DNA of 64,000 nt from Planctomycetota bacterium (GTDB taxonomy: Bacteria > Planctomycetota > Phycisphaerae > Phycisphaerales > UBA1924). Positions 282 through 11,845 of this stretch are shown here, piece by piece. The stretch covers positions 82,581 to 146,580 of the forward strand of contig JAFIFX010000006.1 of assembly GCA_020831805.1 (NCBI GenBank), given 5' to 3'. The notes under the pieces are model-generated. The model was not told the DNA's origin, ran no database searches, and was given only the letters and a program-made list of their open reading frames with translations. How positions within the stretch are numbered: position 1 is the stretch's first letter; each line of letters starts with the position of its first letter. A program made the position numbers and the translations under genes.

Positions 282-1013
282 TCAGGTGCTGGATTCGGCG
301 GACTCGGTGGCCGGCGCACTCTGCGGTGCGGCGTCCTGCTGCTGGGCCGGGGCCGGGCCACGACCGCGGCCGCCCCCTCCGCCACCGCCACGGGGCCCGC
401 CGCGACCACCGCGACCCCCTCGGCGGTCCTGGCCGATGGTGTTGACGGGGGCCTTCATCTTTTCGCCCTCGGCACGGACAGGCATGAAGCGCTTGCCGCG
501 ATCGATCCGGTCCTCGATATCGGTGCTGGCGATCTCGACGCCGCGGAGCTCGGCGACCTGCTCGCGGGTGCGGAGCTGCTCGAAGCCGTCGAACATCGCC
601 TTGACGGTGTTGAGCTTGCCGGTCGAGCCGTAGCACTTGGAGAGGCAGTCGGTGATGCCGGCCATCTCGAGGACGGCGCGGACGGTGCCGCCGGCGACGA
701 CGCCGGTACCGGGCGAGGCCGGCAGCAGGCGCACCTTGCTCGAGCAGAAACGACCTTCGACCTCGTGGGGCAGGGTGGTGCCCGACATGGGGATGGTCGT
801 CAGCGATCGCTTGGCCTGCTTCTCGGCCTTCTCGATCGCGGTGGGCACCTCGGGGCTCTTGGCGTAGCCGTAGCCGACCCGGCCGCGTCGGTCACCGACG
901 ACCACAAGGGCGCCGAAGCTGAAGCGGCGGCCGCCCTTGACGGTGGCGCTGGTGCGGTAGATACCGACCGTGTGGGACTCGATATTGGTTGACTCTTCGA
1001 GGATCTCAGGCAT
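282..1013 (-). CDS. rpsE: 30S ribosomal protein uS5 with RGG-rich C-terminal tail
   Basis: uS5 lies at the mRNA entry tunnel of the 30S subunit and affects decoding accuracy. The 243-residue product shows the N-terminal double-stranded-RNA-binding-like fold (KGGRRFSFGALVVVGD, GRVGYGYAKS) and the C-terminal domain (GTGVVAGGTVRAVLEMAGI). The usual length is about 165-175 residues. The excess is a tail from about residue 195: an arginine/glycine block with repeated RGG, then a Gln/Ala/Ser-rich acidic end. Such tails are unusual in bacterial uS5 but resemble the RG-rich terminus of eukaryotic uS5 (RPS2); that similarity may be only convergent. It lies between rplR and rplO in the operon. Confidence 0.96.
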   Translation of the reverse strand: MPEILEESTNIESHTVGIYRTSATVKGGRRFSFGALVVVGDRRGRVGYGYAKSPEVPTAIEKAEKQAKRSLTTIPMSGTTLPHEVEGRFCSSKVRLLPASPGTGVVAGGTVRAVLEMAGITDCLSKCYGSTGKLNTVKAMFDGFEQLRTREQVAELRGVEIASTDIEDRIDRGKRFMPVRAEGEKMKAPVNTIGQDRRGGRGGRGGPRGGGGGGGRGRGPAPAQQQDAAPQSAPATESAESST

Positions 1014-5131: not shown

Positions 5132-5836
5132 TCAACGGCGTCCGCGGGCGCGGGCCCGGGCGCCCGCCGCGTTGGACTGGTTTTCTTCCTGATCGTTCGC
5201 GGCGTACTCGCCCTTGTAGATCCACACCTTCACGCCGATGGCGCCGTAGGTCGTGAAGCTCTCCGCGAACCCGTAGTTCACATTGGCCTGCAGCGTGCTC
5301 AGTGGCAGCGAGCCCAGGCGGACATCCAGCGTGCGGCTCATCTCGGCCCCGCCCAGGCGGCCCGAGATCTGGATCTTCACGCCCTGCGCCCCGGCCTGCA
5401 TGACCGCCTCGGCACGCATCTTGACGACGCGCCGGAAGCCCATGCGCTTCTTGAGCTGCTCGGCCACGCTCTCGGCGACCAGCTGGGCCTCCAGGTCCGG
5501 CTCGCGGATCTCGATGATCGAGATCGACACCTTCCGGCCCGTCATGTACTGCAGCTCCTCGGTCATCCGGTCGACCTCGGCGCCCTTCGGCCCGATCACC
5601 AGACCCGGCCGGGCCGTGCGGATGATGATCTTCAGCTCCTCGCGGGTGCGCTCGATGTGGATCTCCGACACGGCCGCGTTCGGCGGCGTGCGGTTGAGCC
5701 GCTTGTCGAGGTGCTTGCGGATCAGCTCGTCCTCGACGAGCAGCTCCCCGTACAGCGCCTTGGGGGCGTACCAGCGGGAGCGGTGGGCCTCGGTCACCCC
5801 GAGGCGGAATCCGAATGGATGCGTCTTCTGTCCCAT
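5132..5836 (-). CDS. rpsC: 30S ribosomal protein uS3
   Basis: uS3 forms part of the mRNA entry channel helicase. The 234-residue product begins MGQKTHPFGFRLGVTEAHRS and has the KH domain (ARPGLVIGPKGAEVDRMTEEL) and C-terminal domain (GRLGGAEMSRTLDVRLGSLP, YGAIGVKVWIYKGEY), followed by a short basic tail (ARARARGRR). ATG 5836 lies two bases after the rplV stop codon, so translation is probably coupled. The upstream extension of the open frame is the shadow of rplV. Confidence 0.97.
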   Translation of the reverse strand: MGQKTHPFGFRLGVTEAHRSRWYAPKALYGELLVEDELIRKHLDKRLNRTPPNAAVSEIHIERTREELKIIIRTARPGLVIGPKGAEVDRMTEELQYMTGRKVSISIIEIREPDLEAQLVAESVAEQLKKRMGFRRVVKMRAEAVMQAGAQGVKIQISGRLGGAEMSRTLDVRLGSLPLSTLQANVNYGFAESFTTYGAIGVKVWIYKGEYAANDQEENQSNAAGARARARGRR

Positions 5837-5838
5837 GA

Positions 5839-6384
5839 TCAGTTCCGCTCCTGGACCGAGAGAGTGATGTGGCTCGTGCGCTTGATGATCTGGTGCGCCC
5901 GACCGCGGTCCTTGGCCTTGAACCGCTTGATGTGCATGCCGTTGTCCACCTTGGCCTCGCTGACTACCAGCGTGCCCTGGTCGGCACCGAACTGGTCGGC
6001 GTCCGCCATCGCGGCGATCAGTGCCTTGCGGAAGTTGACCGCAGCCCGCTTCGTCGAGAACCGGAGCATGTTGTCCGCGTCGATCGCGTCCTTGCCCCGG
6101 ATCAGGTCGGCCACCAGCTTCGCCTTCTTCGGCGAGCCGCGGTGGCCGCGGACCATGCTCGTGAACTTGCAGATGTCCTTCGGCAGCGCCCCCACCGCCG
6201 TCGCGAGGTTCTCCACATCCACGCGCCGGCACCGCGGGTGATCCCGCCCGGCCATCCAGTTCCGCACCGCGGACACCGCGGCGGGGCCCTTGAGCCCGTC
6301 GCGCGAGACGGCATCGGCGAGCTGCTCATCGCTCACACCGGCCTCGGCGGCACGCTTCTTCAGTTCTTCGGCTCGCAGTCGCAC
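5839..6384 (-). CDS. rplV: 50S ribosomal protein uL22 fused to an N-terminal Xre-like helix-turn-helix domain
   Basis: uL22 lines the nascent peptide tunnel. The core (about residues 77-181) has the family features: MVRGHRGSPKKAKLVADLIR, NFRKALIAAMADADQ and the C-terminal hairpin RFKAKDRGRAHQIIKRTSH. The protein is 181 residues instead of about 110. Residues 5-75 read like a Cro/C1-type helix-turn-helix: LKKRAAEAG-VSDEQLADAV, a turn, VSAVRNWMAGR, then VENLATAVGALPKDICKF. GTG 6384 is preceded by AAAGGG at seven bases and lies 25 bases after rpsS; starting at the internal ATG 6156 would leave 253 noncoding bases in a compact operon. The fold is inferred from pattern only; whether it binds DNA or rRNA is unknown. 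Confidence 0.93.
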   Translation of the reverse strand: MRLRAEELKKRAAEAGVSDEQLADAVSRDGLKGPAAVSAVRNWMAGRDHPRCRRVDVENLATAVGALPKDICKFTSMVRGHRGSPKKAKLVADLIRGKDAIDADNMLRFSTKRAAVNFRKALIAAMADADQFGADQGTLVVSEAKVDNGMHIKRFKAKDRGRAHQIIKRTSHITLSVQERN

Positions 6385-6409: not shown

Positions 6410-6694
6410 TCACTTCCCGGTCTTGATGCCTTCCTTCTTGTTCGTGTGCCCGCGGAAGGTCCGCGAGTTTGAGAACTCTCCGAGCTTGTGCCCCACCATG
6501 TCCTCGGTCACGAACACGTCCAGGAAGACCCGGCCGTTGTGGACCTTGAAGGTGTGGCCGACGAACTCCGGCACGATCAGACACTGGCGGGCCCAGGTCT
6601 TGATCGGCGAACGCTCGCCGTCCTCGTTCTGGCGCTCCACCTTGCGGTAGAGCTTCTCATCAACATACGGGCCCTTCTTCAGGCTGCGTGACAT
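6410..6694 (-). CDS. rpsS: 30S ribosomal protein uS19
   Basis: uS19 is in the 30S head, contacting uS13 and the A-site tRNA. The 94-residue product starts [20 protein letters not shown] and contains [21 protein letters not shown] and [18 protein letters not shown], the signature motif. Length is normal. It follows rplB and precedes the extended rplV. Confidence 0.97.
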
Positions 6695-10212: not shown

Positions 10213-10240
10213 AGCGTAGACACCCATCCCCCCGAGTCAA
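10213..10240 (-). promoter_or_regulatory. Weak candidate sigma-70 promoter for the S10 operon
   Basis: In the 313-base divergent spacer upstream of rpsJ the minus strand has TTGACT (10240 down to 10235) and, after 16 bases, TACGCT (10218-10213). The -35 element is good (5/6); the -10 element matches only three positions. This is the best candidate I found; nothing else recognisable lies in 10054-10366. Confidence 0.3.
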
Positions 10241-10366: not shown

Positions 10367-11845
10367 ATGCCCAAGACACCCCCCACGGCCTCCGCCCGCC
10401 AACCCGTCCGCCGGATGGCCCTTTTCGCCGCGGCGGTCGCTCTTAGCCTCCCGGCCTTGGCCGCCGCCCAATCGAGCCAGGGGTCTTCATCCCAAAGCCG
10501 TTCCGCCGAGCCGGTCGGCGTCCGCCTCCAGAATCAGGCGACCCGCATCGACCCCCTCGACCTGTCCTTCTTCCTCCCACAGGGATCCGTCGCAGAGACG
10601 ACCAGCTTCGGGGCCAACGCCACCATGGGGGTCGAGCTGCCCAACAAGCTCGGCGTGCTGGTCATCAAGGGCCAGCGGTCCAACAACAACGAGCTGACCG
10701 TCAAGGAAGTCGCCGACTCCATGATCGAGCAGCTCCAGCAGTCCCGCGGCGTCGAGGACGCCCGCACCGGCAACTTCCGGTCCGCCGCCACCCTGATCGA
10801 CCGCTCGAACGTCCGGGTCTCCGGCCTCTCCGGGGAACGGTTCTACCTCCGCTTCGCGCCGGGAGCCACCGGAACACCCGCGATGGTCCGCGGTATCTCC
10901 ATCTTCCGCACCGAGCCCGGCCGCTTCATCATCTTTGACCTCATGACCGAATCCGACGGATTCGACACCGCCCGACGCGTCTACGAGACGGTCGTCGGCA
11001 CCGCCCAGATCACCGATCGCGATGCCCTGGCCGCGCGCCGTTCCACCGCCATCGCCAACCTGCGTGCCGTCCTGGATTCGCTCACACCCGATGACCTCAA
11101 GCGCATCGCCGAGCGGTACCCGGAACGCTGGGAGCGCCTCCACACCCCCGCCGCCTCCGGCGACGAGATGGACGCCACCGAGCACGGCTACCGACGCATC
11201 CGCATCCGCACCGGCGTCCGCGGCGAGGTATCCGGCAGACCCGAACGTACCTGGCGGGCCGGGGACCGAATCCCGGGACTCATCGTTCAGCTCGACGCCA
11301 TGGCCCTTGAGTCCGAACTCCGCGTCGACACCCGCGCTATCTACTTCGTGTCCGAAGACTTCAAGGAAGAGTCCTGGACCGTCAAGATGGCGCTGCGCCA
11401 GGGCCCCACCACCACCGAATCGAGCATCACCGGCGCCCGCTCCGGCACCAGCATGACCGTGCAGCTCCAGCAGGGCTCTTCCTCCGCCCCCATCGTGACC
11501 CGCCCGGTGATCCAGGGCGAGGGCTACATCTCCCAGGCCATCATGCACATCCTCGCGCCGATCCTGGTCGAGAATGCCGAAACCGGCCCCTACGCCGGCT
11601 ACGCCTACAACCCCTCCACGAACACCATCTCCCTCCGATGGGACACCGTCGAGCAGCCCGCTGACAAGCCCGGCCTCTGGATCATCCGCTCCCGCCCAGA
11701 CGACAACACACCCGCGGTCAACCATGTCTTCAACGCCCGCGGCGACCTCATGCGGTCCGAAATGCACAACAGCCGCCTCTGGGAGCCGATCACCCTCGAC
11801 CGCCTCGTCAACCTCTGGCGTCGCAAGGGCCTCCCCCTCGAGTAA
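10367..11845 (+). CDS. Secreted protein of unknown function
   Basis: I do not recognise this 492-residue protein. It has a Sec-type signal peptide: a basic N-region (RQPVRR), a hydrophobic stretch MALFAAAVALSLPALAAA about residues 17-34, and a likely cleavage after AAAQ. The mature protein is a mixed alpha/beta sequence with no cysteine-rich or membrane segments; residues about 60-200 (FFLPQGSVAETTSFG, ADSMIEQLQQSRGVEDARTG) suggest a compact domain often seen in lipoproteins that handle small surface ligands, but this is only impression. CGGAG lies seven bases before the ATG. It is separated by 128 bases from an exported M28 peptidase in the same direction, possibly co-expressed. Confidence 0.75.
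   Translation: MPKTPPTASARQPVRRMALFAAAVALSLPALAAAQSSQGSSSQSRSAEPVGVRLQNQATRIDPLDLSFFLPQGSVAETTSFGANATMGVELPNKLGVLVIKGQRSNNNELTVKEVADSMIEQLQQSRGVEDARTGNFRSAATLIDRSNVRVSGLSGERFYLRFAPGATGTPAMVRGISIFRTEPGRFIIFDLMTESDGFDTARRVYETVVGTAQITDRDALAARRSTAIANLRAVLDSLTPDDLKRIAERYPERWERLHTPAASGDEMDATEHGYRRIRIRTGVRGEVSGRPERTWRAGDRIPGLIVQLDAMALESELRVDTRAIYFVSEDFKEESWTVKMALRQGPTTTESSITGARSGTSMTVQLQQGSSSAPIVTRPVIQGEGYISQAIMHILAPILVENAETGPYAGYAYNPSTNTISLRWDTVEQPADKPGLWIIRSRPDDNTPAVNHVFNARGDLMRSEMHNSRLWEPITLDRLVNLWRRKGLPLE

Follow-up and report, generated by a model that had tools for sequence, protein, structure and literature searches.

A predicted Cro/C1-type helix-turn-helix domain at the N-terminus of ribosomal protein uL22 in Planctomycetota

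We analyzed a 64,000-nucleotide stretch of a Planctomycetota bacterium (assembly GCA_020831805.1, contig JAFIFX010000006.1; hereafter the window, G000:C5:82581-146580 in our numbering), in which the rplV gene (5839..6384, minus strand; GTG start, 181 amino acids) encodes ribosomal protein uL22 with an N-terminal extension. The fusion of residues 1-71 to uL22 is coding and conserved, and the extension (6172..6384, minus strand) is predicted, from AlphaFold2 models and structure matches, to have the overall fold of Cro/C1-type (XRE) helix-turn-helix (HTH) domains. The explanation that we favor, with moderate confidence, is that residues 1-71 are a domesticated repressor fold that has become a fixed docking module of the large subunit near the tunnel exit.

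The rplV gene lies between the genes of S19 and S3, within an S10-type operon of ribosomal protein genes on the window's minus strand, and is the only uL22 match in its genome (59 of 61 genomes searched have a uL22 match). The Pfam family Ribosomal_L22 (PF00237) covers residues 79-177 with 91.6 bits (cut-off 28), and TIGR01044 also scores above its cut-off (88.1 versus 73.65 bits). The extension shows the codon-position pattern of protein-level selection: adding up the comparisons with 12 relatives, the extension has 177/152/486 differences at positions 1/2/3 and the core 301/238/638. Of 482 homologues, the 120 listed match the query over at least 98% of its length (115) or over 91% (five), so the extension is not a chance reading frame. 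The first-pass annotation had described a GTG start with a good ribosome site, which agrees with the GAAAGGG found within the 25 bases that separate the S19 stop from the GTG; the same start is used in 35 of 37 aligned relatives, and the other two start 7 or 9 residues earlier. It had also named initiation at an internal Met (6156), which would leave residues 1-76 unmade, as the alternative to look for. This alternative could draw on the GTG start codon, on an HTH_31 score of the window protein that stays under the family cut-off (see below), and on five of the listed homologues, whose entries start later and comprise 165 residues, but it would leave a gap of about 250 bases in the operon and conflicts with the codon-position pattern, the GAAAGGG and the shared start, and we regard it as strongly disfavored and barely credible.

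Using AlphaFold2 on the extension alone, we obtained five helices (residues 5-15, 19-26, 33-44, 54-64 and 68-71) with a predicted local distance difference test score (pLDDT) of 94.4. The structure prediction proposed earlier as a check thus returned an HTH fold, and the claim of a Cro/C1-type fold fused to the uL22 N-terminus holds up, with phage repressors, C-proteins and SinR among the structure neighbors in the PDB. The boundary has to be moved: the core had been placed at about residue 77, after a 76-residue module, and the model puts the first core strand at residues 72-81, so that the core starts at about residue 72 (residues 72-181; 5842..6171, minus strand). In the model no linker separates the extension from the core, and a rigid join is predicted. 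At the profile level, HTH_31 matches the window extension with E 3.1e-4 and 21.4 bits (cut-off 27), and reaches 27.0, 27.6 and 27.9 bits in the proteins P0083, P0096 and P0005, respectively; 10 of the 120 listed homologues carry a precomputed PF13560 annotation.

Conservation was computed from 174 distinct carrier sequences (weighted, rich in family f1 of our family labels, with a match start within the first 8 positions required). The most conserved positions of the domain are W43 (1.00), N42 (0.99), P50 (0.99), A39 (0.96) and L22 (0.96), followed by A23 (0.93), G46 (0.92) and R28 (0.82), and the positions carry 2.30 bits of information on average in the extension and 2.79 bits in the core. 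The nearly invariant N42-W43 pair (6256..6261, minus strand) lies in helix 3, the 'recognition' helix (residues 34-44; 6253..6285, minus strand). As a yardstick we collected 30 HTH_31-matching loci in 25 genomes of the class, and 29 of these loci contributed 31 aligned matches; as the best HTH_31 matches, these are biased to canonical members. In these ordinary XREs the Arg in helix 1 is found in 31 of 31 matches, and a Glu two residues before the Gly that follows helix 3 in 30 of 31. In the 434 repressor, this signature Arg and Glu pair up at the DNA backbone. The corresponding uL22 residues (hand alignment on shared Gly residues) are A12 (6349..6351, minus strand) and M44, and Arg and Glu each have a frequency of 0.04 there in the family. 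The distance from the helix 2 Ala to the Gly after helix 3 is 23 residues in uL22 (A23-G46) and 16 in the ordinary profile, with the insert columns of the profile left out of the comparison; by this count the turn that connects helices 2 and 3 exceeds that of ordinary XREs by about seven residues (by four in family f4), and the enlarged loop (residues 27-33; 6286..6306, minus strand) holds a conserved R28-x-G30-L31. In short, the fold is kept in the model and the XRE signature residues are lost from the aligned sequences.

A survey of rplV across the phylum had been proposed earlier. In a sample of 298 genomes of the class, 283 have a uL22 match and at least 88 of these carry the domain (match start at profile position 1-6; a lower bound, the listed matches reaching about E 7e-37), including 28 of family f1, 2 of f4 and 58 of f13, f18, f20, f23, f24, f26 and f27. 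Of 30 genomes sampled outside the class, 28 gave a uL22 match, in every case starting at profile position 50 or later. A scan of 392 genomes of the phylum with the domain profile A2 (scoring only 15 first-look candidates per genome) gave matches in 25 genomes, of which 22 are uL22 domains (one per genome, E 9e-35 to 6e-6) and three are weak matches to other proteins (7e-5 to 3.5e-4). The 80 named loci taken from genome records are metagenome-assembled genomes, nearly all labelled Phycisphaerales, Phycisphaeraceae, Phycisphaerae or Planctomycetota; the odd labels are two cyanobacterial names (L082 and L138) and one 'uncultured bacterium' (L086). In one f4 locus (L226, G051) the uL22 start and the remainder of the domain, which is recognisable, lie in different reading frames; this may be a sequencing error or a decayed domain. 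Much of f1 has an unusual sequence at the start of the core (residues 79-89), which reads RGHRGSPKKAK in the window, as compared to forms like RFARISARKAR in relatives without the domain.

To place the carriers, we built a species tree from seven ribosomal proteins other than uL22 (88 rows, using 20 of the 81 f1 rows). Carriers fall into three separate clades, namely f1, f4, and f13/f18/f20/f23/f24/f26/f27 (hereafter the third clade), with f1 sister to f3 (0.99) and f2 between f1 and f4 (0.67), and at least three changes are needed to explain the pattern. The seven proteins reject a single clade of all carriers (approximately unbiased test, p-AU 3.6e-5) and, weakly, a clade of f1 and f4 (p-AU 0.032). 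The tree of the uL22 core (about 103 residues) is much like the species tree but rejects neither grouping (p 0.154 for a single carrier clade, 0.542 for f1 with f4); whole-gene transfer is therefore possible, the core being too short to reject it. Profiles of the three clades (65-68 residues) match across clades at 17.9-74.0 bits, far above their maximum of 8.9 bits on frames from the 30 loci with ordinary XREs; a single origin of the domain is therefore likely. We infer from these sequence comparisons that either an old fusion was lost about eight times (as counted on the seven-protein tree) or at least two transfers took place. A free-standing source of the domain was sought with profile A3, in a search that could show only proteins of about 40-126 residues, and was rejected: all 14 proteins found at E<=10 read as uL22 starts, cut off or frame-shifted, the last with an unrelated end. 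One cut-off copy (P0121) bore the source label 'transcriptional regulator with XRE-family HTH domain'.

Under the docking-module explanation, the domain would ride on the assembled 50S subunit, given that the core matches uL22 in full, and would sit on the solvent side near the exit, given the place of uL22 in known ribosomes. Ribosomal RNA (rRNA) or a neighboring ribosomal protein would be gripped by helix 3, including N42-W43, together with positions 9, 28, 41, 51 and 53, which are often basic, and the grip would stiffen the ribosome surface near the exit, by analogy with the MBF1/EDF1 Cro/C1 domain, which grips 18S rRNA helices of the eukaryotic small subunit. The two roles suggested by the first-pass annotation were a lineage-specific rRNA anchor, which is still the best fit, and control of its own operon, which finds no support (see below).

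Several observations weigh against the docking module. The structure neighbors are above all DNA-binding proteins, and include enzymes such as HppE and cyanase. The net charge of the extension (mean +3.8, standard deviation 2.1, range -5 to +10) is modest for an rRNA clamp, the loss of signature residues is judged against the canonically biased yardstick, and the related families f2, f3, f5 and f6 are without the domain, which is hence dispensable. We also compared 23S rRNA (27 stretches, two of which were cut by contig ends and dropped) between 16 carrier and 9 non-carrier genomes, and found no segment length and no nucleotide position (0 positions) that tracks the domain; groupings of the same set that follow kinship gave 21 and 13 tracking positions. 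The segment at Escherichia coli 484-511 is 26 bases long in 11 of 16 carriers and in none of the 9 others, with overlap, and follows kinship. No co-evolved rRNA site was thus seen in these genomes, and an anchor would have to use conserved rRNA, the backbone, or protein.

This leads to the main rival, which we hold to be rather unlikely: the domain would offer a binding site at the exit to a protein (a nascent-chain, targeting or membrane factor), and contact with rRNA would be secondary. It is in keeping with the modest charge, the lack of a tracking 23S position and the place of uL22 as one of four proteins around the tunnel exit, as given in passages of PMC5071890 (a place at the exit is also given in passages of PMC13338714). 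The domain has no known partner, no genome-wide search for one having been made, and bL17 and bL32 each occur in every one of 31 genomes, carriers and non-carriers alike, which also led us to reject compensation for a lost neighbor. By hand alignment, N42 maps to what we take to be the DNA-contacting face of the 434 repressor, a further point against protein docking. A uL29 frame is visible in the loci inspected (for f1, some of the loci), with the exception of the outgroup locus L254, which could not be judged. It is highly improbable, in our estimate, that the domain, although folded, does next to nothing and is simply tolerated as a leftover on the surface of the ribosome: the absence from several related families would on one reading be repeated loss, but the excess of position-3 differences, a conservation near that of the core, and N42 and W43 nearly fixed over three clades all speak against it.

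Three further observations concern these ribosomal components. The bL17 matches are about 417-462 bases long in f1, f2, f8 and f22 (e.g. G000:C5:76887-77336; two f1 matches were split) as compared to about 330-366 in the other families; the longer form thus also occurs in f2, f8 and f22, none of which has the domain, and is missing from f4. These lengths point to an inserted segment in bL17 whose distribution differs from that of the uL22 domain. Only 2 of the 298 class genomes contain the sarcin-ricin stretch AGTACGAGAGGACCGG in exact form, and several 23S copies (loci L167-L193) read AGTACGAGAGGATTGG or similar. Two 23S genes have segments far longer than elsewhere, as assigned by alignment gaps (341 bases at E. 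coli 530-559 in L176 of G043, and 304 bases at E. coli 1861-1879 in L180 of G077), which are possible intervening sequences.

Alternatively, the domain could make uL22 an autogenous regulator: the free protein would attach through it to the promoter or leader of the S10 operon and repress the operon when ribosomal proteins are in excess. That most structure neighbors bind DNA, and that rplV sits inside the operon to be controlled, would suit this explanation; the loss of the Arg-Glu pair and of the tight turn, and the absence of a linker in the model, argue against it. We located S10 in 114 of 121 sequences, 74 of them f1, and searched the 73 f1 leaders with at least 250 bases upstream for words as compared to shuffled leaders. 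Only TTGACT- and CTAyGCTT-type words, resembling a promoter, stand above the shuffles (the -10-like word CTA[CT][GCA]CTT is found in 36 of 73 leaders and absent in 37), along with a few GC-rich or other words by narrow margins (CGGGCGG in 26 leaders versus a shuffled maximum of 22; GCCGGGCGG and CGGAGCGAT in 8 each versus 6). No palindrome or shared operator was seen in these 73 leaders, so autoregulation through a shared operator was rejected and the earlier suggestion of control of its own operon is not borne out.

CGGAGCGA led us to a structured leader RNA upstream of S10 in the third carrier clade. Lying 196-450 bases ahead of the S10 gene, it is a conserved two-stem element (CAGCCGnAGCGAGC, variable hairpin, GCGTnnCGAGTTGGGCTG), with an outer stem CAGCC/GGGCTG that has changes on both sides at two pairs, AGCGAGC, the variable hairpin, and GCGTnnCGAGTTGG. 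Examples include L194:5053-5126 (minus), L195:2090-2164 (plus), L198:2033-2103 (plus), L214:5113-5180 (minus) and L216:4998-5063 (minus). A model built from 19 copies finds 24 among the 99 sources searched, that is, in 24 of 25 third-clade loci outside f13 (f18, f20, f23, f24, f26 and f27), or 24 of 30 with f13. No match below E 0.4 was found in the window, 30 f1 and 3 f4 loci, nor in 27 non-carrier loci of the class and 8 outgroup loci, and none at E<0.5 in the five f13 loci, which are carriers; the weak scores are E 0.78 in L211 (f13) and E 0.48 in L256 (outgroup). No Rfam match at gathering score was found in the 11 loci scanned. The element is a candidate new regulatory RNA that may serve control of the third-clade S10 operon. 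Its frequency there (24 of 30 loci) makes RNA control of that operon probable and slightly raises the odds of autoregulation (and slightly lowers those of protein docking), but the RNA does not track the domain, because the window, f1, f4 and f13 carriers are without it. On balance, we consider autoregulation unlikely.

Other features of the operon region include the S19 gene next upstream of rplV (6410..6694, minus strand) and the S3 gene next downstream (5132..5836, minus strand; likely start MGQKTHPFGF), both open reading frames named, with the S3 start, by similarity, and a predicted S10 operon promoter (TTGACT-16-TACGCT; 10213..10240, minus strand) about 160 bases before the S10 start. 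S5 (282-1013, minus strand) has a 49-residue tail (282-431), Gly/Arg-rich and then Pro/Ala/Gln-rich, and its two Pfam domains extend as far as residue 157. A gene of 492 residues (10367-11845, plus strand), which runs divergently from the S10 operon, has no Pfam match at E<=0.01.

As compared to known Cro/C1 domains (C.Csp231I, SinR, P22 c2 and 434 Cro), the domain described here is fused to a ribosomal protein, has Ala and Met/Ile/Leu in place of Arg and Glu, a near-invariant Asn-Trp, and a turn between helices 2 and 3 that is about seven residues longer. Its nearest working analogue is MBF1/EDF1 of eukaryotes and archaea, whose Cro/C1 domain sits between 18S rRNA helices h16 and h33 according to passages of PMC7486125 and PMC8040806, and which passages of PMC7486125 describe as not found in bacteria. 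MBF1/EDF1 is, in the same passages, a separate small-subunit factor with another N-terminal part, whereas the uL22 domain is a covalent part of a large-subunit protein; members of that family are free-standing with an MBF1 or zinc-ribbon N-terminal part, and here the domain is itself N-terminal and fused to uL22. A built-in bacterial counterpart of MBF1, touching rRNA of its own or of a neighboring, collided ribosome near the exit and sensing or signalling ribosome state, seems to us very unlikely. Chloroplast uL22c (passages of PMC5071890) and the NF008917/PRK12279 L22 fusion likewise have extra residues on this universal exit-tunnel protein, but those passages describe no repressor fold, unlike here, and NF008917 scores 40.8 on the window uL22 (cut-off 526) through the core only. 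In the open-licence PMC literature we found no publication on an HTH domain in uL22. Lineage-specific extensions of ribosomal proteins are known, and this one is made of a predicted repressor fold: a universal ribosomal protein appears to have acquired an entire domain of the DNA-repressor type, which has persisted across a large part of a bacterial class. With related families that have the domain and others that do not, ideas on how ribosomal domains are gained and lost can be tested. The uL22 extension resembles a transcription-factor fold that was domesticated by the ribosome, in parallel to MBF1 in eukaryotes and archaea.
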